Below are positions 1,759-62,524 of a stretch of DNA of 64,000 nucleotides, in pieces; position 1 is the first letter of the stretch; each line of letters starts with the position of its first letter. The position numbers were made by a program, and so were the translations under genes. The DNA is from Tieghemiomyces parasiticus (taxonomy: Eukaryota > Kickxellomycota > Dimargaritomycetes > Dimargaritales > Dimargaritaceae). The notes beneath the pieces were generated by a model. The model was given only the letters and a program-made list of their open reading frames with translations. It was not told the DNA's origin and searched no databases. The stretch is from assembly GCA_027575765.1 (NCBI GenBank), contig JANBPT010000143.1:1-64000 (forward strand), in the 5' to 3' direction.

Positions 1759-2398
1759 TGTGATGAGTGCAGCACTTCCGGCTGCCTTAACCTCTAGCTT
1801 TCCTCATGTCTATGTCATCTTGTTGCAAGCTTATAGTTTGATGCTTACCAAGTCTATTTTAACTTATTGACTTTGGGGACATAAAACCCCAGGTTGTCGT
1901 CGCCCGGAACTAGGGAGGGGGACGAATTTCAGAACCTCTACTCTTGTTTTTTACTTTTTGGAAACTTGGATACTAAACTGTTGATACCTTTATATTACAT
2001 GTTTGTGGTGCCGACGCCCGCGGTGCCTCTTGAAGGCATCTGACGGGCACGTCAACATGAAAGACACAAAAATAATAGCCAAACCCATTGTGGAGAAGGC
2101 TAAGATTAAGTTTTAAGGTTACGCACCTTATGCAGGGGGATGTAGATCCTTTTTCCCCGCCCCCAGTATAAAAGCAAGCCCGCGCAGCTAGGCAAGGGCT
2201 TGGCAGCTATTTTTTCCCTCAACTTTTACTTTGAATTCGTTTATTAAATCGTTAGTTTCCTTATCATCAACAATTACAATCCCATACTATTTACTTTAGC
2301 CAATTATCGTAAACAACACCATTTTCTCCAGATGTTAGGCCCAGACCGTCGTCGCGTACAGCCTAACCAAAAACCCTTGCCCAGAGCCTAGCACCACA
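1759..2398 (+). repeat. 3' LTR of the gypsy element, long form (640 bp)
   Basis: It begins TGTGATG and ends GCACCACA, so it has the usual TG...CA ends. A TATA box (TATAAAAG) lies at 2167-2174. An internal TGTGGTGCC at 2004 repeats the terminal motif, and from that point the sequence is the same as the 395 bp short LTR that follows. This gives the family a long form with about 245 bp of extra 5' sequence and a short form. TGTT (2399-2402) separates it from the next LTR. Confidence 0.85.
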
Positions 2399-2402
2399 TG
2401 TT

Positions 2403-2797
2403 TGTGGTGCCGACGCCTGCTTTGGGTCTTGAAGGTATCTGATGGGCACATCAACATTGGGAAAGCAAAAACAATAGCCAAGCCCGTGGTGGGGAAGGCT
2501 GGGATTAAGGTTTAAGGTTACACACCTTATGCAGGGGGATGTAGATCCTTTTCCTCACTCACCAGTATAAAAGCGAGCCCGTGCAGTTAGGCAAGGGTTT
2601 GCCAGCTAATTTTTCATTTTCTAGTTTCAAATTGTTTTATTAAAATCGTTAGTTTTTCCCTTATCATCAACAAGTACAATCCCATACTATTTACTTTTAA
2701 TCGTTATTGTAAACAGCACCGTCCCTCCTGCCATTAGACCTAGACTGTTGTTGCATACGGCCTAACCAAACAACATTGCCCAGGGCCTAGCACCACA
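2403..2797 (+). repeat. Solo LTR, short form (395 bp)
   Basis: The ends are TGTGGTGC and GCACCACA, a perfect 8 bp inverted repeat. TATAAAAG at 2566-2573 is followed by the family's conserved downstream block. It is flanked on both sides by TGTT (2399-2402 and 2798-2801), a 4 bp target duplication. It is about 90% similar by eye to 2004-2398. Confidence 0.85.
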
Positions 2798-2801
2798 TGT
2801 T

Positions 2802-3456
2802 TGTGATGGTTGTAGAACTTTGCGTTGCCTTAACCTTTAGCTTTCCCTGTTTCTACGTCATACTGTTGCAAGCCTATAGTTTAATGTTTACTGAGTTTAT
2901 TTTAACTTAGTGATCTTGGGGACATGAAACCCCAGGTCATTGTCGCCCGGAACTAGGAAAGGGGACGAATTCTTGGTTTACACTTTTGTCTTTACTTTTC
3001 TGAACTTGCTTACTAAACCCTTGATACCCTTACATCACATGTTTGTGGTGCCGACACCCGCTTTCCCTCTTGAAGGCATCTGACGGGCACATTGACATTG
3101 GGGAAGCATAAACACTAGCCAACCCCTTTGTGGGAAAAGCTAGGATTAAAGTTTAAGGTTACACGCCTTATGCAGGGGGATGCAGATCCTTTCCCCACTC
3201 ACCAGTGTAAAAGCCAGCCCGCGTAGTTAGGCAAGGGCTCACCAGCTATTTTCTATTTTTTGATCTATCTAGTAAACTATATTTCTTGTATTTTTCTTAT
3301 CAATAACCAACTCCAAAACGATCCCATACTATTTATATTTTGCCGTTAAAGTAAACAATCCTGCCTGTTTCCATTTTCTCTCTGACTTGCCGTTGGGCCC
3401 AGACCGTTGTTGCATACGGCCTAACTGAAGACCTCCGCCTAGGGCCAAGCACCACA
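2802..3456 (+). repeat. Solo LTR, long form (655 bp)
   Basis: It starts TGTGATGG and ends GCACCACA. Like 1759-2398 it has the extra 5' segment (conserved CTTGGGGACATGAAACCCCA near 2914) followed by an internal TGTGGTGCC and the short-form sequence. TGTT precedes it and GTTG (3457-3460) follows. Confidence 0.8.
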
Positions 3457-3460
3457 GTTG

Positions 3461-3789
3461 TGTTGTGCGCGGACTATGATGAGTCCCAAAAAGATAAGAC
3501 GTGATAAGAAAAAAATAAAAGGAAAACTGGCGCAATTATGTAGAAATGAATAATGGTCAAAATAAAAGCTGTTTATTCATAGGGCCCGGCTTGGGCCCGT
3601 TTTATACTGGCTATCAGACGTCTAACTGAAGTCCGGTTATGACAAAGACAATAGGCTTTCCGTTTTGCAATCAAAGGAAGCTAGGATTATTGATATACTT
3701 GGCCTGGGCGTCCAGGGGCTTTGGTTACTGTCCTCTGGTGGCCAACGTTGACAAAACTAGTTGGTGGTTAACTGCGGCTAACCACAACA
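3461..3789 (-). repeat. Solo LTR of a second family, unit A
   Basis: The ends TGTTGTG and CACAACA are perfect 7 bp inverted repeats. Read on the minus strand it has a TATA-like TATAAAA and an AATAAA-like signal in the middle (about 3570-3610), as do units B and C. This suggests an LTR in reverse orientation. It sits 4 bp from the neighbouring LTR on each side. Confidence 0.6.
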
Positions 3790-3793
3790 GTTA

Positions 3794-4148
3794 TGTTGTG
3801 AATGGGGTCAATATGACTTCACAATGACGTCGTTGGTCATTGGCAATAGATAATAAAGGAAAGATATGATTATGAAAGGGAAGTCAGGTTGTAATCTGTT
3901 GGTTTATTGAGAGGACATGTTGGCCCTACTTATACTTGGTGAGGAGAGTGAGCAATGGCAAAAGAAACGAACACGTATACAAGAGTTTGATGATAGAAAG
4001 AAACAAAGGGGGCAATCCCTTTGATGGAGTGGTAGCCGTGATCATACTCAGAAGGCAGCAAAATCAATGGGGCATTCGAACCTGGTAACTGTAGTAGGTG
4101 AAATCAGAGGTTGAAAAGAAGGAGCTAGTTTAGGTCTGGTGCACAACA
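3794..4148 (-). repeat. Solo LTR of the second family, unit B
   Basis: It starts TGTTGTG and ends CACAACA. On the minus strand a TATA-like sequence and a CAATAAAC poly(A)-like signal occur around 3900-3945, in the same relative place as in units A and C. The primary sequence has diverged considerably from unit A. It is separated from unit A by GTTA (3790-3793). Confidence 0.55.
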
Positions 4149-4151
4149 TTG

Positions 4152-4497
4152 TTTTGTGAACAATGGCAGTTCAGGGTCTTTTGTACAGTGTAATTAATGA
4201 GGATGATTTAAAAATAAAAATCGAATTCAGTCAAAATAAGAAAAGAGAGAGTTTTTGATATTGTTTATTGTAAGGCGCGGTTCACGACTTTTATATTCAA
4301 AAGAGAAGAATCTTAATCAGCAAACAAGAAGGAAAGGCAGATAGTAAAGGTTCCTTTGACAAAGTGACAAGTCTGATATCTATTACATAGGATTGGAGTC
4401 AAAGGGTAGTGTGAACCTGATAAGCAAACGTAAAATCGATTTGTCAAAATTTAATAAAGGGAGTGATAAAAGGGGTTTTTAGGCCCTGCACGCAACA
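4152..4497 (-). repeat. Solo LTR of the second family, unit C
   Basis: The ends are imperfect (TTTTGTG and CGCAACA). On the minus strand ATATAAAAG and CAATAAAC lie about 4260-4300. A 3 bp spacer separates it from unit B, and TGT (4498-4500) separates it from the next LTR. Confidence 0.5.
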
Positions 4498-4500
4498 TGT

Positions 4501-5149
4501 TGTGATGGTTGCAGCACTCTGCACTGCCTTAACTCTTAGCTTTCCTTGTTTCTATGTCATATTCTCACCAGCATATAGTTTATTGTCTACCAAGTTTATT
4601 TTAAGTTGCTGACCTGGGGACATAAAACCCCAGGTTGCCATTGTCCAGAACTAGGGAAGGGGACGAATTCTTGGATCTCACTTTTGACTTTACTTTTTCT
4701 TGACTTGCCCACTAAACCGTTGATACCCATACATTACAATGTTCTGTGGGTCCAATGCCAACTTTTTTTCTTGAAGGCATCTAATGGGCACATTAATGCC
4801 TGAAAGATTTAATCAACTGCCAATCCCCTTGTGGGGGAAAGACAGGATTAAGTATTAAGGTTATGCATGTTATGCAGGGGGATGTAGATCCTTCCCCCAC
4901 ACCCAAGTAAAAGAACCAGGCCCACACAGGTAAGCAAGGGCTGGTCAGTTATTTTTGAAGATTTTATTTTAGCATTCTCATTACTTTCTTTATTTATTTT
5001 CCATGTAGCTGGGATGTCATTGTGATCTCATACTATTTACATTAATGCACTAAGTAAACAAGCCCATTCCATCCTGTTTTGCCATTAGACCTAGACTGTT
5101 GCTGTGTACAGTCCAGCCAAAGTACCTCCTGCCAGGGCTTAGCACCACA
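4501..5149 (+). repeat. Solo LTR, long form (649 bp), diverged copy
   Basis: It starts TGTGATGG and ends GCACCACA. It shares the GGGGACATAAAACCCCAGG block (about 4616) and the GCAGGGGGATGTAGATCC block (about 4875) with the other copies. CpG sites of the other copies are mostly TpG or CpA here, so it is an older, deaminated copy. Confidence 0.75.
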
Positions 5150-5262
5150 GTGATGATGAGCCAGGGTTAATAGGTCACAATGAATATTATGAAGAAGGAA
5201 ACAATGAGTTCTTGTGTTTTACTGGGTTGTTCAAGACCAGGTGTCCTTATATAGAGATGGTG
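5150..5262 (-). repeat. Probable truncated LTR remnant
   Basis: The sequence starts 1-2 bp after the preceding LTR with TGATGATGAGCC. It carries a minus-strand TATATAAGGA-like box near 5250, resembling units A-C. It stops where the foldback element begins at 5263. It is too short and diverged to assign firmly. Confidence 0.3.
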
Positions 5263-5614
5263 GTGTGCTGATATTAAGCCCAAGGCTATTCTACTGTCAC
5301 AGAATTTTTGGTTCTAAAATAGCAGACTTGGACTTTACCTTGGGATAATCTAATGTGGTGGTTCCCAATCGCCACAGCAGCCAACTATAGGCCCATTTTT
5401 GGTGGCCAATTTCCTACACAAAGTATGTTAAGAAGTCCTCCTAGACCCACTACAGGTCAGCCTTGCCAGCTTAGACTATGTGTGGTGATTGGGAACCACC
5501 ACATTATATCATCCCAGGGTAAAGTCCAAGTCTACTATTTCAGAACCACAAATTCTGTGATAGTAGAATAGCCTTTTGGTTATGGTATTAGACTTGGGCC
5601 TAATATCAACACAC
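5263..5614. mobile_element. Foldback element with long terminal inverted repeats
   Basis: The left arm 5263-5376 and right arm 5481-5614 are inverted copies, beginning GTGTGCTGATATTA on the left and ending TAATATCAACACAC on the right. The right arm has about 20 extra bases that the left has lost. Between the arms are about 100 bp with no transposase. A partial copy lies at the other end of the window (63745 onward). This is a non-autonomous foldback or MITE-like element. An apparent 72-codon frame inside it is not taken as a gene. Confidence 0.75.
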
Positions 5615-7052
5615 TATGGTCAATGTAGCTTCTACCCCAGTCACTTGACCCTGGAGTCCGCCTTGGTGCTCCACTGCATGGCATTACATACTCTATAATC
5701 CATTGAGGTTATCCTGACCTTCAGCATCAAGGTTGGTAATACCTAGGCCACCTGCAGCATGATCTCTGCTGCCCTGGAGACCAACAGACTCCACAGCTGT
5801 CCCAACCTCATGATCTGGGCAGTACTCTGCCAACCTCTCCATCAATAATGCCCTCTACCACAGCCACTTGTTCTAGTGCCTTGGCATGTTGATAAACCAC
5901 TGGGGGTATTGACACTAACACATTGAGGTACCATGTGCCAACATTTGGACCACAGTCTAGGAATTTAGTGCCAGTGATCTGGACCCCTTGGGACACCATT
6001 GCCCATTGGGTTATGGTTTATTACTCCTTTGAGTGCCCCTGCCTTGAATACAGCCTGGTGTTTCCCTGTAGATGGCAACTTATGACCAACAGGTTGCCTG
6101 CCTTATATTCACTATAAATAAAAATTCACTTCACCTGAATATAGCCTGGTCACAATTTTCACATACACCAAGCTAGCCCAGTGCCTGCGGTCCATTGAAA
6201 GAGGCATCCCTGATCACCTCCTAGGGATACCACCCACCTCATCCACAGGTATGGTTCTACCACTAACCAGCCTTGGCCCTACAATACACTGATGGTAGAC
6301 CCTCTCCACCTAGTATGCTTACTAGTACAAACTAGACCCAAATGGCCCCTGTCCTTTGTACACTACATCCTGCACCCCAACTGCCACAACACAAAATCTG
6401 TCACACAAGCAAGGTCCCTGAAGCCCCAACTCCACCAACCAGTTACCTTGGGCCTTGAGACTATGCTCTGGATTGCCCACAATCTTGCCATGGATACAAA
6501 AAATACTGCCAAGACTGTCATCCAACTAGGCCACTAGCTTGTGGCCCACCCCATATGCCAACTAGTCATGACCCATGACCCCAGGTCACCAAATGAAAGC
6601 ACGGCTCATTGAGTGGATGTTCAGACTACACCTCCAATGTGTCACTTGCCAGGTGCAGCTCACACTACCCCACACCCTCAATAGGTCCCGGCTCAATTGA
6701 CTGCTACCACTCAGCAGTGCTGGCCTCCCCTCCCCAAAGACAGCCATCTGGCTAGCATCCCTGCCAACCACCTCCTCCAAACCCTCCTGTTGCCACTGTG
6801 ACATCACCACCATTGGCATTCATTTCACCTGAATATGCTGCCTCATCTGGCAGTCCCTAATCCACACATGAAGAAACGCCCCCAGCTTTCCCAGCCCTAC
6901 TCCCACCCACCTCCTCCCCTTCCCCGCCTGCTGGGGACCCTTTGCCCAGTTGCCGTCAGTACCACATTTTCTCCTATCAGTGTTTAAGTCGAATGTACAA
7001 CACACCTGACGCCCACCCTATGTCTATCGTAGCGCTAACGTAACTTTTAATT
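5615..7052. other. CpG-depleted, gene-free repeat debris
   Basis: No frame of convincing length or composition was found. From 5615 to about 6830 CG dinucleotides are almost absent (only a handful by eye) while TG and CA are abundant. This is the signature of old, formerly methylated repeat DNA. CG reappears after about 6880. Confidence 0.6.
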
Positions 7053-7087
7053 CACACACACACACACACACACACTCTCTCTCTCTC
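7053..7087. repeat. (CA)n(CT)n microsatellite
   Basis: A run of about twelve CA dinucleotides passes straight into about six CT dinucleotides. It lies near the boundary between repeat debris and the gene-bearing region. Confidence 0.9.
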
Positions 7088-7774
7088 GCAACTCCCCCCT
7101 CCCCTCTCCTCTCGCCCATTCAGTACCAGGGATCTCCTCAGTCGGCAAGGATAAACTCTATTACGGTTCTCAGCAGGCCCAGACATAGAGTGAACCCGAA
7201 AAAGGACAGATCGACCAGACCCTGACACCAAAGTGCGAGCTATCGGCTATACTAGACTATGGGCTATAGACCTTCAATAAAGAGCAAACCTTCATCCCAA
7301 GGTTAATATTCCAGGTGGGGAGCACGGAAAACTAATAGATCGTCGTTATATGTAGCCCCAAGGTGCTGTGGAGCTATTGACGGTCGACTTGCCGTAGAAG
7401 GACTTGTAGGTTTCAGGGTAAGGTATGGCCAATCTTTATGGGTCGATTCTACATATGCGGTGTAGGTAGCCGGTTGACCAGAGGACAATGTGGGATCCGC
7501 GGACACCTGGTCTAAAAGAGATAATCAACTAATACTAGGCCACCACGGTTCACTGTGGAAAGGAAGTGGGAGATACGGTGCCATGCCAAGTAGTTGCCCG
7601 ACTCACCCTGCTGGATCGTGCCATTAGACCGTCCTCTTCACAATATTTTCCGCGGCCAACGGAGAAGTCCGCACTACCTGGCTTGTCCTGTCCTTTCGGA
7701 TAGTTTGAGAAAACCACGCGGCACCGGCTTGCTAAAATCCCTGCCTGGTTGGGACTCCGGTTCTGTCCATCCGC
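7088..7774. other. Intergenic, no gene seen
   Basis: CpG content is normal here. Short open frames on both strands lack start context and recognisable features. The last part is the likely upstream region of the small secreted protein gene at 7917. Confidence 0.4.
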
Positions 7775-7782
7775 TATAAATA
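7775..7782 (+). promoter_or_regulatory. TATA box of the secreted-protein gene at 7917
   Basis: TATAAATA lies 135-142 bp before the ATG at 7917, followed by a pyrimidine-rich stretch (about 7810-7900) typical of a fungal 5' leader. Confidence 0.5.
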
Positions 7783-7916
7783 CTATTCGGTACCCCCGCG
7801 GTAGCCTTAACCATCTCTCCACTTCACCAGCTTTCACCTCTCCCACGATCACATTCTCTTGTGCACACCCTCCCGACCCCTCCACCACCTCACAAGCTTT
7901 CCTATACGCCGTCGTC

Positions 7917-8162
7917 ATGCTCGTCTCCAGTCGCCTTACCGTGGCCTTGTTCGTCGTTCTTCAGGTCATCGCCCTGACCGCTACCGCCAAGAAAACCACT
8001 TCGACCAAAACCATCACCACCACCACTAGAACTTCGACCACGGCTTTTCCTACTCCCGCCACGACCAACGCCCCGTCAGCCATCCCCAACCAGGGCGGCA
8101 CCGATCCTCTGAGCAGCGGAGGCGGCGGCTCCGTGGGTCTCGGTGGCGGTTTCCACTGGTAG
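7917..8162 (+). CDS. Small secreted Thr-rich protein, GS[V/I]GL family member 1 (81 aa)
   Basis: I do not recognise this protein. Residues 1 to about 24 form a signal peptide (MLVSSRLTVALFVVLQVIAL then ATA). The mature part is short and dominated by Thr and Ser (TKTITTTTRTSTT), which suggests O-mannosylation. It ends in a Gly-rich segment with GGGGSVGL followed by GGGFHW. It has no cysteines and no membrane segment besides the signal. The same layout (signal peptide, variable middle, C-terminal GS[V/I]GL plus an aromatic tail) is seen in the genes at 9132 and 12622, which makes chance translation unlikely. The ATG at 7917 was chosen because it starts the signal peptide; the frame upstream is leader-like. 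A TATA box lies 142 bp upstream, and an AATAAA-like signal lies near 8450. Function is unknown; a secreted peptide precursor or effector is speculation. Confidence 0.65.
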   Translation: MLVSSRLTVALFVVLQVIALTATAKKTTSTKTITTTTRTSTTAFPTPATTNAPSAIPNQGGTDPLSSGGGGSVGLGGGFHW

Positions 8163-9131
8163 AGCGTCGTGCTCCACCCCTGGTACCATGGCAAGGATCT
8201 GCTCGGTCTCCCCTCTTTTCTCCACGTCCTCTAGACTATTCGAAAGAAAATAAGTCGGTGGTTGATCCACTCCTCGATATTGGCAAGCTCTCTCTGCTTC
8301 CATACTTACCGCGCGCTTTACGGCCTGCCATTGTCGGAACGAGGCCAAACCTTTCCCATCTTTTTGATGGACAGAAGCTGGTCGGCCGATGATCGAATTT
8401 GGCCTTCGTAACGACTCAATGTGATATCTTCTACTAATCTAGTACTTAATAATAAAATTTATAGCTAAGAGACGGTTTGAGACAAAAGTATGGTTAAGAA
8501 ATTCCCTCCTGGATAACGAGTAGTGTAAAAAAAACGTAGCGACTACTTGCATTTATTTTCAGGTGGAGTCGAAGCCAAGATGGAATATTGTTTCCCTACT
8601 CATCTGGCATGCTTCTTTGGCCATTAGAGGGTAAGCCTACTCGATCAATTCATGACCCGCTCGCCTGCTCGCTAGTCAATCGACCAAGCGAGTAGAAGAT
8701 CCCTGACACCTGAAGTGAGATGTCAATCGGTATAACAGGGGACCGGGGGCCAGCAATCAGTTGGGAGGAATGAAGTATCACAGCGACTAGCCTGGCTCGA
8801 GATTTACGTAGAGGTACGATCATTGCAGGGTATCCGTCGTCCGTCCCAGCAGCCGATGCTAGCTTATTTCTCACCCAAAGAAGGTTGACTGCTTGCACCC
8901 ACCCGCTGCGATGCTGCAAACGAAGCAGTCTGTCGAATAACATCTGGTTGTAAAGCAAGTTCAGAAATAATATAATAAGAACCGGTTTCCCTGCTGTCAT
9001 TGATGATACACCGTTTCCTCAAAGTTATTTTTAGAGCTTACTCCTCATTATCCCCTCTCTATCTACATATGCACTGCGAGCCCCGGGTCCTTTGAAATAT
9101 CATTTCGCTTCATAACGCTCTCTAAGTCACC
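8163..9131. other. Intergenic between two small secreted-protein genes
   Basis: No gene was recognised. A minus-strand frame of 116 codons (8650-9000) has no family resemblance and is probably chance. An AT-rich patch at 8400-8530 may hold the 3' end signal of the preceding gene. Confidence 0.4.
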
Positions 9132-9407
9132 ATGCTTCCCACCTGTCGCACCATGTCCCGCGTCGCGCTCCTAGCGGCATTTTGCATTGGAGCCTTCACC
9201 CAGGCGGCGCCAACCAAAATGGTTCCCAATTCGGATACGGTGGAGCAGCGACCCATCCTATGGCGGAAGGCGGTGCATCCCATGGGCAAGGACGACACTA
9301 ATAATTCGGACTTTCCGCCACTCTCCTTAGACGAAACTGCCCTCGATACCACCCTTTCCCCCAACCTTGGCGGTAGCGTCGGGCTGCGTTTTGGTTGGCC
9401 CGTTTGA
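9132..9407 (+). CDS. Small secreted protein, GS[V/I]GL family member 2 (91 aa)
   Basis: I do not recognise this protein. A signal peptide follows either the first Met or the Met at codon 8 (MSRVALLAAFCIGAFTQA), with a likely cut after Ala. The middle is hydrophilic and unlike the other two members. The C-terminus reads NLGGSVGL then RFGWPV, which matches member 1 (GGGGSVGL then GGGFHW) and member 3 (GLNGSIGL then HWYTYFNR). The only cysteines are in the signal region. The Arg-Lys after residue 40 could be a kexin-type site, but this is not conserved in the other members. No clear TATA box was found. The gene stands alone, 970 bp from member 1. Function is unknown. The positional conservation of the C-terminal motif is the main reason to call it a gene. 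Confidence 0.62.
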   Translation: MLPTCRTMSRVALLAAFCIGAFTQAAPTKMVPNSDTVEQRPILWRKAVHPMGKDDTNNSDFPPLSLDETALDTTLSPNLGGSVGLRFGWPV

Positions 9408-12403
9408 CGTCGTGACGCTAAATACAGTACTTGCCACCAGACAGTATTAGCCGCTATAAAGGGTTAACTTTAACTCTCGGTGAGGTTTTACGTTTCCGTC
9501 GAGTACGGTTGTGGACCACCACTTGGCGGTATGTCTATTGTACGGTCACCAGTTAAGAGTTGTGTTATTTATTAAAAAAAATCTGGGGGCTTCAGACTTT
9601 GACTGTGTAGCTGAAATGGAGTAGCGTCCGTTACGGCGAGTCGATTGGTGTCACCCATCCTAGGGCTAGATTTTATTTCGCAAGATGGCTTTAGGTTTGA
9701 GCTCTCCCAGCAATTCGGGTTCAACGCTCCATCCTCAAACCAACCTACTTTCACCAGGTGTGATGAGTGGAGGCCCTTGGGTGGTACGTGACTTCACATT
9801 GCCACGGGGGCGGGGACATCACCTTCATATCCACGGTCCCCTTGGTATTTACTATATCGTGCATCACCGTTACTTACCAATGGCAAGGCCGTTTTCATGT
9901 TGGAAGAGGCTCGCCTACATTGTGACCTCACAACGTGGTCGCCCATTGGAAAATGCTAGATGGCTTTCCAGGTATAAAACCTTGGGCCCTACCAGAAGAC
10001 GGGTCACAAAGAAATCGCGGGTGGCTGGCCTGTGTTCATCATAATACCTTAAACCATCCGACTCACCATCCTATCAAGGCTTTGAGTGTAGAAACCTGGC
10101 AATGTTGAATCCCTCCACGACCGCTCTGGTGACCATCGTCATCACCGGGCACGATGTACATCCGATTTGATGGGGGATTTTGTCGAAGTTGGTGGCTATC
10201 CGATTGGCTCCAGTGTTACCAGTGACGCCGTTCGTTGTCGGGGATTCAACTCACCTATTGATGCTAGGCACCAGAAATAGTACTCCAAAGACTGACCAAT
10301 GTCAAGCTAGCTCCAATTGAAGGCCAAAGTACCCCACGGCCATACTGGCAGCGTCTTTCCCTGGCTACCGTCCATTATACGGAAGATAAGGAACCCTGCT
10401 TACATTAAGGATGCAACCTACGTTGCAGTCCGCAATGCTCGGCCTGGGTGAAGCCATGTGGGTGCCTGGTACCTTGTCCTTGGATGTTCCATTGCAGACA
10501 TGAAGTTGGTAATCGTGCTGGCTTCTCTCTAATATATTTTTTTAGACACAGCGATCCAGGGTCTACCGGTGTGCGATTCGTTTCTTATCTGACACCTAGT
10601 GGCTTTAGGTCATTCGGGACTATCGCGTGGCGACGGAAGGTACAAGAGGTTTCCTAGGGAAGCGACCACAGTAGCTGCCTGGGAACTGAATCATTCTGGC
10701 GCCTCGCCTAAATATGTTAGGGCTCGATCGAGATACTGCTTGGGAATTTCACCGGGCGGATAATTATTTTAAAGATATACATAGTGTAATGGAATTTCTA
10801 CAGCACAGCTATTGGCAAATGAACTTAACTTGGGTTCGCCTCAGCCGGCACGAGGGTAGACCAAAATTGATCCTCTCCAATGGGATGGGTCGACTCGTTT
10901 CCAATGATGACCAGTATAAACTGAGCGACTTACCCATCTAGGATCCACCGTCTAACCTTTGCACCATCCGCTAATGTATCTGTGGATTGACGACAGCTGT
11001 GATAGCCCAACTTGTAGAGCAGAGTAGAGAAAGCAACCACATGTATGTCTGTCCCCCCCCGCCGCCTTTGTCTCGAGCTTTCCAGTCGAACACTAATGGT
11101 TTTAATGCATTCCGGTCCATCGATATGCGGCCTGGCATCTATTAGCCCTGCTGACCCGTGGTGTCTAGCAATAGGCGTGTCCCTAAGAGTCTCTTATTTA
11201 GAATGTTAGACTGAAAGTGCTCAGCTCGATCTTCACAGGTCAGGTCAGCTTAACTTGGATCTGAATTGATAACGGGGCCAGCACTGGTATCGCAGAGTCA
11301 GTAGTTGTATTATGTGGTCAAATATCAAGGTATAGGTTCAATAAAAACTAGCCGGCTGAGTTAAACGGTGGAGGGGGGAAGCACTAGGCATCGAGGATTG
11401 GACTCAAGTGCCACTCAAGGGCCCCATACAGTGGACAGCACTGTGTAATCCCGTTCAAGGGCGGTCCTCTCTCGGCTGTCTTAATACCTTGCGAGGTTGC
11501 CCGTATCATCAAATTCGAAAATTGTGCAGACAGCTTCTGGATTCTATCGGCCCCGCCCTTCTCTTCCGCACGCCCCCTTGTCGATCGACCTTTGAAATGG
11601 CATGGACGGAAAGGACCCCCGTGAAAGTTGATGAACCATACTCATCATTTGTACTATCGTCTGACACTTAAGATCACCGCCGTCCGTATTTCTAGCGGGC
11701 TCGGTAGGCTAAACGCGTACGCTGTGTAGGGCCTATCATCCTTTTACTGGGAACTGTCCTCCCCTTCCACCTGTGCGTCTACGCTGTTGTAGCGTCCTTA
11801 CAAAATCCACCGTCCCTTCCCACCTTATACTGAAGGCACTTGAGGATCCATTAATTTTCTCGCATTAGGATGATTAGAGAGGCCTGATGGCCCTTGAGTC
11901 GAAAGTTGCCTCTTCATCTAGCCTCAGTTAGTAAGATCGGCCCCTATGAGCTACCCTTGATTAACCACATCCAGGGTTAACGTAGCCCCGACTCCTCTCT
12001 CTGCACAGTGATTGGTCCATAGCAGACTCTACCTGACGATATAGCGCTGAGAGGTGTACGCCTTGGCCCCTCTTTATCCTAGTTCAAACTTCAGATAAAG
12101 AATTTGTGTGGTTAACTCACCAGCTTGTTGGAAACGGCAAATGCTGAGTCGTCTGATGATGGGCGGCTGGACGATCGGTAGCTCCTCACGGAAGATTACC
12201 TCCCACCGCACTCGTCGCTCCTTTCCCTAGTCTGGATCCTAGGATTGTCAGTGTATGACACGCACGTCGACGGCTAGGACTGTTGAGAAAAGGGAACATA
12301 GGTAGCACAATAATGAAGCTGGCAAGGTAAGGAGGGGGCTAGCTTAGCGTGCCCTCTACCCTGTGGCAGGAAAATGTGCCTATTAACATCATATATATAT
12401 ATG
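9408..12403. other. 3 kb gene-poor stretch
   Basis: CpG is not depleted, unlike the flanking repeat blocks. No frame longer than about 120 codons was found, and none has a signal peptide or known motif. I looked for a further GS[V/I]GL member on both strands and saw none. No tRNA was noticed. An (AT)n patch near 12390 precedes the next TATA box. Confidence 0.4.
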
Positions 12404-12411
12404 TATAAATA
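12404..12411 (+). promoter_or_regulatory. TATA box of the secreted-protein gene at 12622
   Basis: TATAAATA, the same octamer as at 7775, lies 211-218 bp before the ATG at 12622. The leader between them is pyrimidine-rich. Confidence 0.45.
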
Positions 12412-12621
12412 GCGCGGCCCACCCTCCGTTCCGGAACAATACTCGCAACCCAACTCATCATGTAGTGCCCTTTAATATCAGTACCAGCACTCATAGTAAT
12501 ATCCCTCACCTGTCTACTCCGACGATCGACCAGCCTCCCATTCCCTTCACTTCAGTTGTGACTATCCCTGGTCGGGTAAACACACTACGGCTTACTTCAC
12601 CCACTCTCCCCTTCTACCACG

Positions 12622-12861
12622 ATGGTTGCCCGCAGTACCCTTCTCCTAAGCTCACTGATCACGTGCCTCCTCGTTGCTGGAGTCCAGCCACGACCGCTTG
12701 AGGACCCCGAGGATACCTCACCATCCGATAGTGACACCGGTGCTCAGCCCACCAGCACTGTATTCACTTTGCTTAATGCCCAGGGTAAAAACATTGAGGA
12801 TAGCTCGGAAGGTCTTAATGGGTCCATTGGGCTGCATTGGTACACGTACTTCAATCGGTAA
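12622..12861 (+). CDS. Small secreted acidic protein, GS[V/I]GL family member 3 (79 aa)
   Basis: I do not recognise this protein. Residues 1 to about 23 form a signal peptide (MVARSTLLLSSLITCLLVAG). The mature part is acidic, with many Asp, Ser and Pro (LEDPEDTSPSDSDTG), then comes EGLNGSIGL followed by HWYTYFNR to the end. The C-terminal motif lines up with those of the genes at 7917 and 9132, while the middles do not align at all. This is what would be expected if only the C-terminal segment is functional after secretion. There are no cysteines after the signal peptide. The ATG sits in a good context (ACGATGG), and an upstream TATA box uses the same octamer as member 1. Function is unknown. 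Confidence 0.65.
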   Translation: MVARSTLLLSSLITCLLVAGVQPRPLEDPEDTSPSDSDTGAQPTSTVFTLLNAQGKNIEDSSEGLNGSIGLHWYTYFNR

Positions 12862-13747
12862 CCTACCATGCCCACACAATGCAACCCCCTTGCCACTTCT
12901 CCACCCAACTGTACTTCCGAACTCTATTATTTCCGCCCTTTTATTGTTAAAAGTCTTCCGGTCTTCTAAGACCCCGGCATCAAGCTTGCTTTAGTAATGT
13001 GTTGTTGCTAACTAACCAGGAACCAAGTAATCGGCTGATTATTATTGAGACTCCTCAATCTACAGGGGCCTCACGGCACTTTTATTTACGTAGAGTTATA
13101 GCCAAACGCCATTAAACCATCAAGCTCATCATTTTCTCTAGACAAACCGAAAGACTAATTACCCAATATATAGGAGAGCTCAACCGCTTGTTGCCCAGTC
13201 TGTAATGACGGTAATCTCAATGGCAATTGCCCTCACTGAGGTAGCGACCGTAAACAGGTGAATACCAACAGGGTGCGGGACATTGGGCCTCCGGTGTGGC
13301 AGGTCTTGAAGATTAGCCGTGACACAATGCCTGGCTGGTATAATATAAAATTACGGTTAGCCGAGCCAAGTAGTGCAATAATGCTTAACGTTGACGTGGA
13401 CCTGGCGTACCCACCGCCATTGTGTGGTTAAAGCAGCGTGGGTTCCAGAGCCCGGCTTCGCCTTCCCCTGCGTCTGAAGTAAGAGATAAACGTGACCCCG
13501 TCCGGTTGGCAGACAACCAGGCACCTCGGCAGCCGAGCCCCGAAACTCGCCAGCCGGGCCCCCCATTCCACCCGCCTCGACCCATCCCTCAAGGTTGTCA
13601 GCATGGGCGTTCGCAACTGCCCTCCGTACAATTCCCTGCTTCTAGTCCATCCCAACATCGCCCCTCCGCCTCATTCCCGGCTGTCCACAGTCCGGCATTC
13701 CATCGTAGTATTTGGCTCCGACCTCTGCAACCTTTCGTTTCGCTCCA
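12862..13747. other. Intergenic upstream of NOT1
   Basis: Nothing gene-like was seen. GC content rises steadily from 13390 and several overlapping frames open on both strands. That is a composition effect of the NOT1 promoter and leader. Confidence 0.4.
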
Positions 13748-16700
13748 ATGGACATGGCGCCCCCTGTCCCTGCACCCGTCCTCACAAGCGACATTGACGA
13801 CCGCATTTCCCACCTCGTCGACGGTCTCTCCGCCGACCGTGCCCAGGAGGGTTTCTCGAACCTCTTTCAGGTAAGAATGCGACCACCAGCTGGTGGCGGT
13901 TACCCCTTGACCGTTCACAAATCCAACGTTCCTGCGCATTTACAAACCGTCGGCGATTTACTGACCAGGGGACAAGGGACCTGTAGGCCGATCGCTACCC
14001 GTGCCTCCCAAGCCCATTGCTTTTCAGTCACTATTAGCTGGTGGTGGCTTCCGACAACGCCTGTATCTAGCCTTCTTACAGCCGATGGGGCCTGAAGCAT
14101 AGTGGGACCCAAAATCCAGCACGATGTAGCTACATTCCTAGAATGGGAGGTCCCAAGCCTAGGAAGTTAGACCGATAATGGCCTCAGCACCTGGGTCTTC
14201 GGCATAACACCCTGCTACCAACCCAGCATGCACATTACCGCCCACCAACTTTAGGTATCCTCACCGACTGGTGCCCCACAGCTTTCTCCCGTCGTGCTTC
14301 CCACCCTTCCGCGTCAAGTAACCGTTCAGCCTCTGATTTCCCCCCCCCTTCCTTTAGGTCCACTCTTTCTCACCCTCTCTCGCCTCATCTATCCGATCTA
14401 ATCGAGCCCTGCACATCTCTACACCCATCTATCATCTCGCTTCCCTTCTCTCGCTTCGCCCATCCCGCTTGTAGCTTGTCGTCTCACACGGCTCCGCGGG
14501 CTACATTTGCTTACTTCGCCATCTGTGCCGACGCGCCCATCCGGTCTCTGGCTCACCCGAATCAGGTTCAGGAGTCTGTCTAATCCTCCTCCGCCACCAG
14601 CTCCGCTACACCGTCGATCGTCTTACCTTCGCCGATACAATCGCCCGCGTTTTTACCCACTCCGCTCGCGACGCTTCCCCGATCCCCGCCCTCCCTGCCG
14701 TGTCCCTGACCTGGCTCCTCACCTTCGTGGCCGACGACCCACTGCAAACTCTCGCTCTCGTCCTCAACTGCCAGGCTCTGTCCGACAGCCGCCTACGTGT
14801 TCCTGCCGCTGACTACTTGCGTCAGCACCTGGAAACCTTGCTCAACGACCTTACCCGCACTCCGCCCGTCACCGCGGCCCGTCAGACCTTGTTAACCCAC
14901 GTCCTCTCCCGCCTCGACATCCGTTCAAATCCCACATTGACCATGTCCGCCCCATCCCCCGCGTCTGGCCCCATCACATTGGACGCCATCCTCCGCAAGG
15001 AGGGACCGGCGTGCCTCACCGATCCAGACCACTTTCTTAACGTCCTTCGAAACTATGACGTGGCTGACCATCGGCTCCCAGAACTCTTCAGTGAGGAGCA
15101 CGTTGCCCTCGCCCTGCACACCATGATGGCCGCTCCCGCCGGTTCCCTACTAGCCACTGCCAAATCCCAGGATGACTGGAATTTTAACACCTTCGCTCAG
15201 ATTCTGCGCCGCCTTTCCCCTCATCTGGCCTGGGCCAAAGTCATATCCATCTTCGGGGTCACCGATCTTGTTATCCCCTCACCCAAGGCCGCTCAGAACC
15301 TCCTGGACTGCTACGCTGCGGCTACTCAGGATACGGGAGCTGCCGGCTTTCCCGTAGCTGCCGTCAGCTTCCGGTGGAAAAGTATCCCCAGCCAGCTGAA
15401 ATTGTTTAGCGTTCTACTAGGTCGGGCGTCCAGCGGACACTGGGACTTAACCGGTTGCCGCCCCGTGGTCAAGCCCGAGGACCTCGAGGATTACCTTGTC
15501 CTCTATCGCGGATACGCCGCAAACCTGGGTGCGTCCCTGTGGGGCTCGCTCGACCTCATCGCGCTGTGCGCCGAACTCAGTGGGTCCCCGGAATATGCCA
15601 ACCCCATCAAGTCTCTCCTCGGCGCGGGCGTAGACCAGTCCCCGGAACTCATCCTATTGGGATTCCTCCAGCTGGATGGTCCTTGGTCGACCTTCGCCCA
15701 GACGGTGGTTGTCAAGCTGCTCACTCATTATCTGGGTCAACCGGCCGGGGGCGGCTTCGTTCTGCACCTGGCCTGGCGCCTCTCGCAGTCTACCGTATTC
15801 GCCACCATGCTCGAACTGTACAAGGTGGAGGCAGGCGCTGTTCCGCACCTCGTGGAGGTGGCGCACAACCTGCGCGCCGAGTCAGCCATCTTGCCCGTGC
15901 GGCAGTATCCCTTTGTGCTGGATTTCGCCCTCTTCTGCGCCCGGCGCGCTTACCTGGATCTGGAGCCCTGGCTGGCCGCGCAGGTTGTTGAGGGTGCCGC
16001 ACCCTCTGTTAACGCCATCTTGGAGTATCTACGCCTGAAGCTGGCTCTAGAGTCCCAGCGCCAGGAGGGGGCGCCAACCAACAAGGCCTTACTCCTGCGG
16101 CCTGAGGAGTTTGCCCTGTACCTCAAGGCCGTGTCCAACGCGCCGCTCAACAACGACCAGGTGGCCTACTTTAAGGCTATCTACCAGACCTTCGGCAAGT
16201 TTCAGCCGGCCCTGCTAGCCTCGGCTGAGGACGGCGGACTGGGAGTACCGCCCGAGGCCGAGAAGGCCGCCGAAACGTACTACCTGAAGTTGTACAAGGG
16301 AGACGTGGCGGTCACCATGCTACTTGAACACCTCACCAACCTGCGTGACTCGGTGGAGCTGCGCGAGCGGCAGATCTACGCCTGTGTGGTGCTCTGCCTG
16401 CTCGACGAGTTTAAGTTCTTGCCCAACTACCCGGATAAGGAATTAGACCTCTACAGCACCTTCTTCGGGTCCCTACTGGCCCGCCGTCTCTTCCCACGTC
16501 CCGAGCTGCGCACCGCCCTAGGACTGCTCGGGGAGGCGCTAAGGAGCGACCCGAACGGTCCCCTCTTCCGCTTCGCCCTCACGGTGCTCCATCAACTGCG
16601 AGAGCAACTCTGTCTGTGGCCCGCTGCCGCACGTCGACTTGGCCAGCTCCCGGCACTGCGTTCGTCCCAATCTGAGACGGCCGCCTTTGTGCGCCAGGTA

Positions 16701-27838: not shown

Positions 27839-28537
27839 TTAAGCAACGTTTCCGGTCCCGTAGTTGAGAATCTTGCACTTCGCATTCTCAGTGATTTGCA
27901 CGGTATCCTTGTTGAGCTTTCCATCAAGAACCTCGTAGTTCTTCTCGCTGAACGCGTAAAAGTCGATTTGGTTGTTTTTGAAACTCCAACTTTCATCGTC
28001 CACACGTCCGCACCCGTTGTGCTTGAGGACCTGGCCCGAAGCGCCCTTGATGGGCAACTCGAGGCCGTCGAATTCCTTAATGTAAACGATGGTGCCTACC
28101 TTAATGTCGTTAGCGGCCAGGCTCACGAACGGCACCAGTGGGTTATCGTTGGAGCCTAGGGGTCCATCGACCACGTCGAAGCACATGTAGCCCGTGCAGC
28201 CGCAGCTACCTAGGTTGACAAAGGTACCGTCCTTGAGGCGACCGCTGCCTTCCAGCACTAGGCTGTCAGCGAACTTGCGACTGGCCTTCCAGGTACGTTT
28301 CTTGTCACAGGTACCAATAGTGGTATCACTACCGTCGTTGTCCGGCTGCACCGCGATCCAGTAGTACGTAAGCTTGACCTTGCGACTACCAGCGAGGTTG
28401 TCCGCCCGGCGGTACGTTGCCACCGAGTCACGAGCCTGGACAGTACTACCGCTATCGGCCGGGTGGGCGGCCGCGATCGCGCCGACGCACAGCTGGGCAA
28501 GGGCCACGAGGCCAAGGGCGGTGAAGCGTAGGAGCAT
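27839..28537 (-). CDS. Secreted 3D-domain / double-psi beta-barrel protein (232 aa)
   Basis: A signal peptide (MLLRFTALGLVALAQLCVGA, cut near residue 24) is followed by one domain. KLTYYWIAVQPD opens it, then come TIGTCDKK, SLVLEGSGRLKDGTFVNLG, a Cys cluster CGCTGYMCFDVVD, LVPFVSLAANDIKVGTIVYI and HNGCGRVDDESWSFKNNQID. The HNGC.RVDD...W and LAANDIK.GT.VYI motifs are those of the 3D-type double-psi beta-barrel seen in bacterial MltA/RlpA-like proteins and in secreted proteins of several early-diverging fungi. In those families the Asp residues act on, or bind, cell-wall glycans. Both Asp of RVDD are present. Residues 215-232 are a short unstructured tail. The domain call is firm. Action on a fungal or bacterial wall, or a purely binding role, cannot be told. 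A minus-strand TATATAAA lies about 145 bp upstream. Confidence 0.82.
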   Translation of the reverse strand: MLLRFTALGLVALAQLCVGAIAAAHPADSGSTVQARDSVATYRRADNLAGSRKVKLTYYWIAVQPDNDGSDTTIGTCDKKRTWKASRKFADSLVLEGSGRLKDGTFVNLGSCGCTGYMCFDVVDGPLGSNDNPLVPFVSLAANDIKVGTIVYIKEFDGLELPIKGASGQVLKHNGCGRVDDESWSFKNNQIDFYAFSEKNYEVLDGKLNKDTVQITENAKCKILNYGTGNVA

Positions 28538-56736: not shown

Positions 56737-57972
56737 CTACCAGTTGCTCCCTAGGAACCCCAGCATGACCAGGGCGGCGCCCACCCAGTAAATAGGGGTC
56801 GTGACGAGACCCTTGAGGAAGATGTCGCCTAGAAGGGCCAGTGGATTGGTCAAGGAGATACCCAAAGTAACGACCAGGGGCGAGGTCATGAGGACGGCTA
56901 GCAGCCATAGGTACTCTGACAAGAACGAACCCACCAGGGCGTTAAGGGCGATCATGCCCCAGACGATGGCGGTGGGGGGCAGAGCAAAGGTCTCCACACC
57001 CGTATAGTGGAAGAGAAAAAAGAGCGGCCAAAGTAGAAAAGTGTTAAACAGGCCCACGAAGCCAAGGAAAGTGGGCATATGGATTCGGTCCTCGTTGTCG
57101 ATCTTGAGCTTGATTAGGATGGTGTAGCAGCCATAGAAAAATGCGCTGGCCACAGCGAGGACGTCACCAACCAGGTGATTACGTGAGTCGGGACCGTCAG
57201 TGGGGGCCTGGACTCCGGTAGTGACGAGGTACACCCCGCCGATGCTGGCAGCCACGGACGCCACGCGCAGCCAGGTGAGCCGTTCGACGCGGAACAGGAC
57301 GCCCAGAATGAGGGTGAAAAGACCCGAAGTGGAACACAAGATAGTGGCGTTGGATACGGTGGTGTGGGCCAGGGCCGTATTGGACGAGCAGTTGGCGGCG
57401 AACCACAGCAGACAGAAGGTAAAACTCAGTTTGGCCGTCTCGCGCGTGGTCAGCTTGTCCAGAGGAGCTTCCTGCACCACAACCTCGTCGGTCGTGGGCG
57501 ACGGCGCACGGGCCCCCTCGTCACCAAACGAAGTGTCCGATTCGAGGCCCTGCTTGTCCTGCGGAGACGGGCAGGTGTCACTGGAGGCCTTCAAGGGCGA
57601 ACGAGACGTCGGAATGTCCGCGGCAGCAGCGACGGTGAGCTCTACCGCGCTAGCGGGGCGCTTTGGCCTCAGGGCGCGGAAGGCAGTCCCGATCAAATAA
57701 AACGTGAATGACGCGGTGTTGAGGTAAGTGACGAAAATGGGCTTGTCGTAACTGCTTTCGTTAAACATGAAGCTCATGAGGAAAGACGAGCCGACCCAGA
57801 TGAATACCACGCCGAGTAGAAACACGATGCCGAGGGCATAACGCCCGCGGCCCTTTTTGATGCTGGCACGCAGGCGGGCGGTGAGGCGGGCACTGTGTGA
57901 ACTGGGCTCCACCGCGGCTGCATACGGCGGCGGCGGCGACTGGGTTGCCAGGGCGGCATACGACGGGGGCAT
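56737..57972 (-). CDS. SLC35F5/THI74-type drug-metabolite transporter (EamA fold), 411 aa
   Basis: About ten membrane helices. The first is ALGIVFLLGVVFIWVGSSFL, followed by FMFNESSYDKPIFVTYLNTA, which is the conserved N-terminal block of SLC35F5-like proteins of the vacuole or lysosome membrane. A disordered Ser/Pro-rich loop (about 110-170) precedes ETAKLSFTFCLLWFAANCSS and NTALAHTTVSNATILCSTSG, the EamA repeat. The second repeat has GDVLAVASAFFYGCYTILIK and ALVGSFLSEYLWLLAVLMTS. It ends IYWVGAALVMLGFLGSNW. The ATG at 57972 was chosen because it starts a soluble N-tail before TM1. The open frame continues upstream to 58260, and a longer N-terminus from another ATG is possible. The substrate of this family is unsettled. 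Confidence 0.88.
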   Translation of the reverse strand: MPPSYAALATQSPPPPYAAAVEPSSHSARLTARLRASIKKGRGRYALGIVFLLGVVFIWVGSSFLMSFMFNESSYDKPIFVTYLNTASFTFYLIGTAFRALRPKRPASAVELTVAAAADIPTSRSPLKASSDTCPSPQDKQGLESDTSFGDEGARAPSPTTDEVVVQEAPLDKLTTRETAKLSFTFCLLWFAANCSSNTALAHTTVSNATILCSTSGLFTLILGVLFRVERLTWLRVASVAASIGGVYLVTTGVQAPTDGPDSRNHLVGDVLAVASAFFYGCYTILIKLKIDNEDRIHMPTFLGFVGLFNTFLLWPLFFLFHYTGVETFALPPTAIVWGMIALNALVGSFLSEYLWLLAVLMTSPLVVTLGISLTNPLALLGDIFLKGLVTTPIYWVGAALVMLGFLGSNW

Positions 57973-59959
57973 TGCCGTGTGACAAGGAGTGGGGCCAATA
58001 ATAATAAAAATGGTGAGAACGGGCAGTAAACTCGGGCGGGCTAAGCAAACACTAGCCAGGACGGGCAGCAGGAAGGGCCAGTGGCGGCGGGCCAAATGAG
58101 GCATCCGCAAGGACAGAACGGTTGAACATGAGCAGGGGCCCATGCAAGAGAAGGGGAGAAGGGATGGACAAGTGGAATGGGCTCCGTACGGCGCACCTGA
58201 AGGAGGCGCGGAGGACCTACAGCACATTGAAGGCGGCCCTGCCCGTCCCCTTCGTTTCAAGTGGCCGGGTGACTCTCAAACGACCTGCTGCACAGGACTC
58301 GCCAGCTCTCCTGCGATGGCGCCATCAGCGGCCTATATGGCAGTAGCCCCTTACCTGTACTTTTTCCATAACAGGCGATAATCGGCGGGCGGAATGGCGT
58401 GAAGGGAAAGGGCGCACCCACTCGAATTTCAACCGCGGGCAGGGGGCGCGGCGGGAGAAACGGGCTGAAAAAAATAAACCACTGCAGTTCCGGGGAAATG
58501 TCCGATACGCCGGCGGATCGGGCCAGTGGTCGGGGAGCCACGGCGGATGCGTGTGTGCAGAGAGGGCGGTGGGGTAAAGAACGGGTATTTAGTAACCGAG
58601 GACTGGGGCCATCTAGAGATGGCGCGGTAGAAGCAACTAAAAATACTGCTAAGTGCAAAGTGAAAAATGGGGGTCCATTTTTACCCGCATTGCTTCCTGC
58701 GGACACAGTGGCTTAAATAGTCGTCGGCTTTGTTTTCTATATTTGGCCTCGCCTGGCTGGACGGCACCTTAGCCCTACGTTCTTCCCCGACGTGCCCCTC
58801 GATTGGCTGACGCGAATATTCTCAACCCCCCCGCGCTGCCGAGGCAGAGACTGAGCACCATCGTTGCAAGGGGGAGCCGAGCGAAGGGACAGCTGAACAC
58901 CCTCGCGGAGCTGCCATGGGGATACGCAAACACGCCGCTGCGGGACGAAGGCGTCGCTCATAGTTAGGCGTACAAGGGTCGCACCGTTGGGATGCTGGCG
59001 ACTAGATATCGCCATCTCCATGCCATCCCAGCCAATGGATAGCCTGCTGAATCCGACCGAGGACAAGCTCCCTCCGCCCTCCCCCAACGCGACCCCCACC
59101 CCTACCAACTTCCTTGCTGAGTTAGAGCGTACAAGAGGGTAGAGTCAAAGGATCAAGTGCTCTGCGACCTCCTCTCCCCCCCTTGATGCCAACGCCAATA
59201 AAAGCGGGCCCACTCACCGTGGTAGGCGCAGAAGGCAATCCGGCCGTTGCATACCATGCTGTGTTCAGAAGACTTATCCCCACTTCTTCACACGTGAGCC
59301 GATCGCAGCGGCGGTCACGGGACCTGTCAGTCGGTGTCCAGCACAAGGCCGTGCATCAGCGCCGCCAACTACGGAGCAATAGTAGTACTAGCACTTTAGG
59401 TGAGATGATTCAGCCGTCGTTGAGTAGGGAGGCGTAGCTGTGATAGTGGGGAGGTGTCTACTTGTCGTCCTAATGCGGTGACCCATTAAGCGTCACAGGG
59501 CTGTGCCTGGGAAAACCGCTAATGCGGTGGCTCCAGGACGACTTGAGTCGCGTCGGCCAGATATCTGGCCCGCCAAGTGTCCAAGTAAACCCCGGCATCA
59601 TAGAAGGAATAATATCCATCGTTTCAACAAAAATAGATCTGATACTTCCGGTTACCTAATCATTCAGATCCGGGTCTATCAGCTGAACATGACGTGCTGA
59701 TCTAGTCCTCGGCTGCACTTTTCAGCCTTCCTGTAGTCTAGTTACACATCGAAATGGTGCACCGATCCTATATGAACATCTTAGGGTATTGTATGGGGCG
59801 AATTGCAACAGGTTGAAATTCCCAAAACGCGTTTATCAGCCTTTCTAGCCAGGATTTTAAAGGCAGAAAGTCTAGCTGCGACTATAAAGGACGCAACTGT
59901 TCGACAAGAAGGTAGGACAGCATAAAAGTGGATTCAAATTCTGAATCGAAGAAAAAGAT
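57973..59959. other. Intergenic between the transporter gene and the tRNA gene
   Basis: Short frames on both strands without features. CpG is normal until the tRNA. It marks the right end of the gene island. Confidence 0.4.
59949..59957 (-). terminator. Pol III terminator of tRNA-Ser
   Basis: Just past the tRNA 3' end, the minus strand reads ATCTTTTTCTT. A run of five T is the standard RNA polymerase III stop. Confidence 0.75.
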
Positions 59960-60051: not shown

Positions 60052-60444
60052 TGTGGTGCCGACGCCCGCGGTGCCTCTTGAAGGCATCTGACGGGCATGT
60101 CAACATTGAAGACCCACAAATAATAGCCAAACCCATTGTGGGGAAGGCTAGGATTAAGGTTTAAGGTTACGCACCTTATGCAGGGGGATGTAGATCCTTT
60201 TTCCTGCCACCAGTATAAAAGCGAGCCCGCGCAGTTAGGCAAGGGCTCGCCAGCTAATTTTCCTATCTTTTACTCTGAATTCGTTTGATTAAATCGCTAT
60301 TTTTCCCTATTGTCAACAAAAACCATCCCATACTATTTACTTATAACCGTTATCGTAAACAACACTATTTTCTCCGGACGTTAGGCCCAGACCGTCGTCG
60401 CGTACGGCCTAACTGAAAACCCTCGCCCAGCGCCTAGCACCACA
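60052..60444 (+). repeat. Solo LTR, short form (393 bp), next to tRNA-Ser
   Basis: The ends are TGTGGTGC and GCACCACA, with TATAAAAG at 60214-60221. TTTT occurs on both sides (60048-60051 and 60445-60448) as a 4 bp target duplication. It is CpG-rich, very similar to 2004-2398, and so young. It is inserted 10 bp upstream of the 5' end of the tRNA gene, with the opposite orientation to it. Confidence 0.88.
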
Positions 60445-60779
60445 TTTTGATTCGGCAGCGTGCTCTTATCCGTCAAAAGTCAAGGGCAGAGGAGTGGCAG
60501 TCGGCCAACCCTTGCAGTCAGTCAGGGGAAACGGCGCAGTCGGCGCAAAAGATCAATAGTAGGTCGAGCGCAGACGGCGCTAATTTAAAGGTCAGAAAAG
60601 AGTCTAAAGTTTTTTATTCAAGGCAGTCTCAGGATATTAAATATGAAATGAATATTGGCAATGTCGCCATAATTGTCGATGACGAAGCCTCTTCCAGCCT
60701 TTATCAGGTAGTGATAAAGGCTGGCTTAATCTTTGGTATTGGAGGTGATTGAGTTGTGGACAACAATCCACAACATTTT
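60445..60779. other. Spacer between two solo LTRs
   Basis: 335 bp of non-LTR sequence with a 101-codon plus-strand frame that has no features. A short inverted repeat (CCTTTATCA...TGATAAAGG) lies at about 60698-60722. Confidence 0.4.
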
Positions 60780-61200: not shown

Positions 61201-61419
61201 TTTTCTGAAATGTTTAATATAATAGATGATAGTACCCCAAGGCAGGGTTGATGAAAAACACTCCCCAAGCTCAGAGGTGCTGGGGCTTGGGCTATAAATA
61301 GTAATTGTGAATCCTCAATAAGACTGTAGCCTGGCTGGCTACTCCAAGGTTGGCCATTTTGCCTATTGGCCCCTCCAGGTATGAAACAAAATAAATCAAA
61401 AAGTTTGTAAGACAATAGG

Positions 61420-61617: not shown

Positions 61618-61621
61618 TTTT

Positions 61622-62101: not shown

Positions 62102-62105
62102 TTTT

Positions 62106-62519: not shown

Positions 62520-62524
62520 TTTTT

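Follow-up and report, generated by a model that had tools for sequence, protein, structure and literature searches.

Kex2-processed repeat proteins (KEPs), among them the precursors of alpha-type sexual pheromones, are small secreted fungal proteins that, according to the excerpts available of two papers, occur in Zoopagomycota too (PMC7329392, PMC6339444). Kex2-processed fungal peptides are defined by repeats separated by KR or RR in the available part of one of these (PMC6339444), and surveys of secreted peptides in fungi rest, as far as the excerpts go, on such repeats together with Kex2 sites (PMC6339444, PMC7329392). A different layout is found in the CLE precursors of plants and in the CLE-like RiCLE1 of arbuscular mycorrhizal fungi, where a signal peptide and a variable middle precede a conserved C-terminal segment; GrCLE1 of Gigaspora rosea carries five CLE domains instead of one (PMC11538016, in excerpt). 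The Cys-free CFP of insect-pathogenic fungi are, in the portions of text available, small, secreted and narrowly distributed proteins of 120-145 aa, said to be exclusive to insect pathogens of the Hypocreales (PMC8546967, PMC9224661).

Three short ORFs, g1, g2 and g3, were analysed in a window of 64,000 nucleotides (contig C414) from the genome of Tieghemiomyces parasiticus, a member of the Dimargaritales in the Kickxellomycotina, which comprises 46.5 Mb in 1363 contigs. Dimargaritales are described as mycoparasites with haustoria in the part available of one paper, in a statement on the group and not on this species (PMC10386755), and no paper naming Tieghemiomyces parasiticus was found in the literature searched. 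As the original prediction had it, the three ORFs encode 81, 91 and 79 aa and all lie on the + strand. Their positions, with those of the associated features and neighbouring genes, are given in Table 1.

Table 1. Position of the g1-g3 ORFs, their predicted parts, upstream elements and neighbours in the window.
Feature	Position	Strand	Details
Probable TATA box of g1, TATAAATA	7775..7782	+	142 bases before ATG; in both copies
g1, small secreted protein candidate, 81 aa	7917..8162	+	Thr-rich middle; tail GGSVGLGGGFHW
g1 predicted signal peptide, 24 aa	7917..7988	+	ATA before KK; hydropathy, cut by -3,-1 rule
g1 C-terminal segment	8124..8159	+	Core GGSVGL, tail GGGFHW; unchanged between both copies
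g2, small secreted protein candidate, 91 aa	9132..9407	+	Tail GGSVGLRFGWPV
g2 predicted signal peptide, 25 aa	9132..9206	+	TQA before AP; hydropathy, cut inferred
g2 C-terminal segment	9369..9404	+	Core GGSVGL, tail RFGWPV; on C775 same core, tail RFGSPF
Possible TATA box of g3, TATAAATA	12404..12411	+	218 bases before ATG; several ATGs between box and g3
g3, small secreted protein candidate, 79 aa	12622..12861	+	Acidic middle; tail NGSIGLHWYTYFNR
g3 predicted signal peptide, about 22 aa	12622..12687	+	Cut site uncertain; hydropathy, cut inferred
g3 C-terminal segment	12817..12858	+	Core NGSIGL, tail HWYTYFNR; unchanged between both copies
NOT1	at 14943		
MFS transporter	at 24423		
EamA/SLC35F-like transporter	56740-58227		

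The N-termini of g1-g3 consist of a short stretch with basic residues followed by a hydrophobic stretch, and their hydropathy maxima rank first (g1), fifth (g2) and fourth (g3) among the 146 ATG-initiated ORFs of 50-150 aa in the window. The signal peptides that had been proposed were recovered, as signal-peptide-like starts, in all three; their cut sites follow the -3,-1 rule and not a trained predictor such as SignalP. We infer that the proteins are secreted. The predicted mature parts have 57 (g1), 66 (g2) and 57 (g3) residues, net charges of +3, -2 and -6, and Ser plus Thr contents of 37%, 17% and 23%, respectively, and contain no Cys. The three ORFs have the short length and (predicted) N-terminal signal peptide of small secreted proteins, and lack, with 0 Cys, the conserved Cys of Cys-rich effectors, hydrophobins and CFEM proteins. 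An AlphaFold2 model of g1, built on a six-row alignment, had a mean pLDDT of 55.6 and an N-terminal helix as its sole element, as expected of a disordered secreted protein, the alignment being thin and a poor model being no proof of disorder. This model was too poor to serve as the query of a fold search, and a profile search of the PDB returned two weak matches only, both with head decoration proteins of phages (E 0.1 and 0.2), which were judged to be chance.

Compared by description only, g1-g3 resemble the CFP in being small, secreted (here by prediction), Cys-free and narrowly distributed, and differ from them in length and in the fungi that carry them. They are also like lineage-specific small secreted proteins and candidate effectors, with which they have in common their size, signal peptide, absence of a known domain, rapid divergence and clustering. 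To our knowledge, it is unusual for such proteins to have, beyond the signal peptide, no conserved part but a C-terminal core.

A second copy of the locus is present on contig C775, which aligns with window positions 5613-9799 at 92.0% and 10870-38630 at 94.4%. The simplest reading is that the two copies are haplotypes of a non-haploid fungus; non-haploidy is likewise suggested, in the excerpt available, for Dimargaris cristalligena (PMC10386755). On C775 g1 lies at 4907-5152, g2 at 6122-6397 and g3 at 8545-8784, with lengths, starts, stops and cores kept and no indels. The nucleotide differences between the copies number 11/246 in g1, 15/276 in g2 and 17/240 in g3, corresponding to DNA identities of 95.5%, 94.6% and 92.9%, against 90.8-96.6% in the neighbouring noncoding DNA and 98.0% at the start of NOT1. 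As the DNA of the ORFs is hardly more conserved than its flanks, and less so than the NOT1 start, g1-g3 are weakly constrained proteins.

Between g2 and g3, the 1070 bases at 9800-10869 are present on C414 and absent from C775. A mobile element was considered for this stretch and set aside, as its genome matches were only to itself and no clean target-site duplication was seen by eye; as far as could be seen it is a simple insertion/deletion difference between the copies and not a repeat element. Repeats found in several places near both ends of the window (2029-5615 and 60077-63878) are common to C775:660-2591, with about 76-93% identity.

The ratio pN/pS between the copies was 0.32 for g1, 0.30 for g2 and 0.73 for g3. 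Pooled over the three it was 0.43 (one-sided Fisher test, p = 0.0044), with 19.0 changes at 196.3 synonymous sites and 23.0 changes at 556.7 nonsynonymous sites; read in its five alternative frames, this DNA gave 0.99, 1.36, 1.02, 1.04 and 0.51. Low values also came from two ORFs whose C775 counterparts are broken (0.43 at 13598-13939 and 0.22 at 13915-14100), so that a single ratio proves little. Between 5613 and 14900, g1-g3 are all intact on C775 (3/3), compared with 4/21 of the other mapped ORFs of at least 50 aa; this count covers 24 mapped ORFs, 7 of them intact, after five unmappable ORFs were dropped. With codon scores for which six long ORFs in the window served as training set, g1 ranked first, g2 second and g3 fifth (near zero) among 29 ORFs, and with synonymous codons alone the ranks were first, third and fifth. 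Given that frames and cores are kept on C775 and that the pooled pN/pS is 0.43, g1-g3 are probably protein-coding, g3 being the weakest case: support as genes is fairly good for g1 and g2 and comes, for g3, mainly from its company.

The view that these are the only gene candidates within 6 kb is roughly right, as the following ORF to combine a low pN/pS with intactness on C775 begins at 13748. This ORF (13748-14095) has 115 codons, a pN/pS of 0.31 and no Pfam match, lies just upstream of NOT1, and is possibly an upstream exon or a small gene. Elsewhere in the window, a predicted secreted protein of 232 aa is encoded at 27842-28537 on the - strand and is 98% identical to IWQ60_007218 of Tieghemiomyces parasiticus; its database relatives include bacterial 3D-domain (PF06725) proteins, and it has no Pfam match itself.

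The octamer TATAAATA, which had been noted upstream of two of the genes, is indeed found before g1 and g3. It does not mark the family, as the window has 11 occurrences where 0.82 would be expected and the octamer is missing upstream of the C775 copy of g3, which has TATATAT in its place; it was accordingly discarded as a family-specific promoter element. Such a frequency probably means that it is this organism's ordinary TATA box, and the enrichment suggests that this fungus uses a strict one. No TATA-like match was found within 260 bases upstream of g2. In the last 100 bases before the ATG, C+T amounts to 73-74% for g1, 65% for g2 and 66-68% for g3, where the mean of the region is 54% and its 95th percentile 68%; the leader of g1 is above this percentile, and those of g2 and g3 do not exceed it. 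Additional ATGs lie upstream of g2, of g3 and of the C775 copy of g1. The near-background codon score of g3, the missing TATA-like site of g2, the ATGs upstream of g2 and g3 and a DNA identity similar to that of the flanks are what would be expected if the three were chance ORFs and not genes, but this is very improbable in view of their intactness on the second copy, the pooled pN/pS and the fact that the protein database lists g1 as a prediction of 81 aa.

All three proteins end in GS[VI]GL followed by aromatic residues, which bears out the common tail from which the original prediction set out. Among the 146 ORFs of 50-150 aa in the window, GS[VI]GL is present in g1-g3 only. The best three-way ungapped 8-mer within the last 25 residues scored 78, whereas 500 composition-keeping shuffles averaged 28.6, the highest of them scored 64, and none reached 78; the word length was picked after the motif was known, and for this reason the numbers are somewhat flattering. 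Pairwise 10-mers over the whole mature parts gave a weaker signal, the score being reached by 1/300 shuffles for g1-g2, 8/300 for g1-g3 and 6/300 for g2-g3. At the DNA level there is no similarity among the three beyond short repeats of chance length, and the serine codon of the core is AGC in g2 and TCC in g1 and g3. Common descent, which we infer, thus rests on the architecture and about six residues, and if the three are paralogues their duplication is old.

Alternatively, g1-g3 could be young secreted ORFs without relation to one another, set in a gene-poor stretch and with Gly-rich tails that are alike by coincidence. The missing DNA similarity, the different serine codons and the weak constraint on g3 are in line with this, as is the genome count of the TCN form of the motif: the DNA pattern RRNGGNTCNRTNGGNYTN has 106 matches, not more than its reversed control (127), although the AGY form, RRNGGNAGYRTNGGNYTN, is raised (82 against 53). 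A coincidence is nevertheless quite improbable, since no shuffle attained the three-way tail score and since the motif occurs in just three of the 146 ORFs, which lie next to one another on one strand and all begin with a signal-peptide-like stretch.

The changes between the two copies were also located within the proteins. Residues differ at 0/18 positions of the cores, 2/20 of the rest of the tails (both in g2), 15/142 of the middles and 4/71 of the signal peptides. These numbers agree with a constrained core and are too small for proof; only 21/251 residues changed overall, which makes the conservation of the core between copies weak evidence.

With a predicted signal peptide, a variable middle and a conserved C-terminal segment, g1-g3 are laid out like CLE precursors, and a similar description is given of the CLE-like proteins that mycorrhizal fungi have, in the excerpt available (PMC11538016). 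By analogy, the three could be secreted peptide precursors from which a protease other than Kex2 frees a C-terminal peptide of about 12-20 residues, for signalling within the species or to the host fungus, as with CLE, and the significant three-way match of the tails would fit such a role. In contrast to CLE precursors, conservation in g1-g3 ends after about six residues and processing is hypothetical. The GS[VI]GL segment with its aromatic residues is presumably not a CLE domain, judging by eye against the CLE consensus.

In the window copies the dibasic pairs (KR, RR, KK, RK) are limited to KK at residue 25 of g1 and RK at residue 45 of g2, with none in g3; the g1 pair adjoins the predicted end of the signal peptide and is KR in the C775 copy. 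Unlike KEPs, g1-g3 have no repeats separated by KR or RR and one copy of the segment per protein, and the sole internal repeat found in them consists of two 25-base units, 72% identical, within the part of g1 that codes for Thr. The residues that follow the core differ among the three proteins and also between the copies of g2, which read FGWPV on C414 and FGSPF on C775 (2/6 residues different). With no dibasic site near any tail and variable residues after the core, the precursor with a released C-terminal peptide that had been put forward is unsupported, and we regard peptide precursors of any such kind as unlikely. The more far-reaching proposal of a new class of fungal secreted peptide signals, with one C-terminal GS[VI]GL-aromatic peptide per precursor, Kex2-free release and three diverged versions for different receptors or hosts, would be a long shot. 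Searches for the STE2 and STE3 receptors gave no match in the genome and none in control genomes either, and are therefore uninformative on a pheromone role.

Further members of the family were sought throughout the genome, and none has been found so far by genome searches and the reading of 103/188 motif matches, in disagreement with the expectation of additional copies. Searches with g2, with g3 and with all three tails returned the two copies of each gene and nothing else. The search with the whole of g1 returned its two copies and ten weaker matches (E 2.3e-4 to 5.2, the next-best being 0.002), of which six were read (L003-L008); the rest, two on C465 and the others on C776 and C488, have E values of 1.2 to 5.2. 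Four of those read, on C1199 and C435, were rejected as Thr/Lys-rich frames of apparent paired repeats in which NGGSFGI comes after a stop, and those on C518 and C424, the latter the start of a longer secreted protein, were unrelated by eye. The four on C1199 and C435 (L003-L006) form near-identical Thr/Lys-coding pairs 4.9 and 4.4 kb apart, one pair per contig, and are possibly the two ends of an LTR-type element.

For the TCN form of the motif, among the 100 of 106 matches listed, 30 were read with up to 1500 flanking bases on each side, 20 with about 700, one of these being shortened by the end of its contig, and a further 20 in 99 bases in total, in which upstream frames are unseen; two matches are the C775 copies of g1 and g3. 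For the AGY form, with all 82 matches listed, 30 were read, and one more is the C775 copy of g2. Part of these readings took in only matches with a stop within 30 codons. Apart from the six matches that are the known genes, the remaining 97 of the 103 showed, by eye and with 20 of them judged on 99 bases only, no small ORF with a signal peptide that ends soon after the motif. When ORFs were scanned more widely, over 118 loci with 297,023 bases including overlaps, g1-g3 and their copies were recovered and no others.

No match of g1-g3 above the cut-off was obtained in Pfam or NCBIfam, and a profile search of 5.8 billion proteins returned g1 alone, in keeping with the original remark that no family is known to have this signature. 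When g2 alone was used as the query nothing was returned, not even g2. As the database contains at least one protein of Dimargaris cristalligena yet missed even g2, the lack of relatives is weak evidence. The letters GGSVGL, NGSIGL and GSVGLGGG do not occur in the literature searched, and no such family is described in the titles and abstract starts retrieved by topic.

The proteins could also be effectors of mycoparasitism, delivered as whole proteins at haustoria to act on the host fungus, with the tail as a targeting or interaction motif. They are small, have signal-peptide-like starts and no database relatives, are weakly constrained and are encoded by clustered genes, in an order of haustorial mycoparasites; compared with candidate effectors of fungi in general, the host would here be another fungus. 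However, it is a role and not a class of sequence that defines effectors, and the named effector families are mostly rich in Cys, of which g1-g3 have none. This possibility is thus considered distinctly unlikely.

Our preferred reading, which draws on the sequence and to which we assign a probability of roughly 0.45, is that g1-g3 form an orphan family that diverges fast and consists of disordered secreted proteins free of Cys, in which the C-terminal segment serves for binding or assembly, perhaps at the surface between parasite and host. They would be real genes of an old, tandem and lineage-restricted family, and the mycoparasitic fungus that carries them would be diploid or have two copies in some other way. 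Each protein would be directed into the secretory pathway by its signal peptide, which would then be removed, leaving a mature part of 57-66 residues, largely disordered if the weak model of g1 is a guide, in which a spacer (Thr-rich in g1, neutral in g2 and acidic in g3) carries the C-terminal segment. The GS[VI]GL-aromatic segment would be the functional part, binding a partner or driving association outside the cell, either on the surface of the fungus itself or where it touches its host, and it is through the latter that a link to parasitism may exist. The spacer, we propose, could diverge freely because it would need only to keep the segment extended and soluble. The proteins would probably act whole and not as peptides released by Kex2. 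What stands of the original prediction is three probably real and probably homologous small proteins with a shared C-terminal segment, without the released C-terminal peptide; as an uncharacterised tandem family they are probably real, of an ordinary kind (orphan small secreted proteins) and with an unusual pattern of conservation.

If the tail should prove dispensable, g1-g3 would be just another orphan secreted family. A new class of peptide signals, if true, would belong to a lineage about whose signals for mating and host recognition little is known. The Dimargaritales are little studied haustorial mycoparasites, and a private family with one short common segment offers a testable candidate for molecules of the fungus-fungus interface or for signalling within this lineage.
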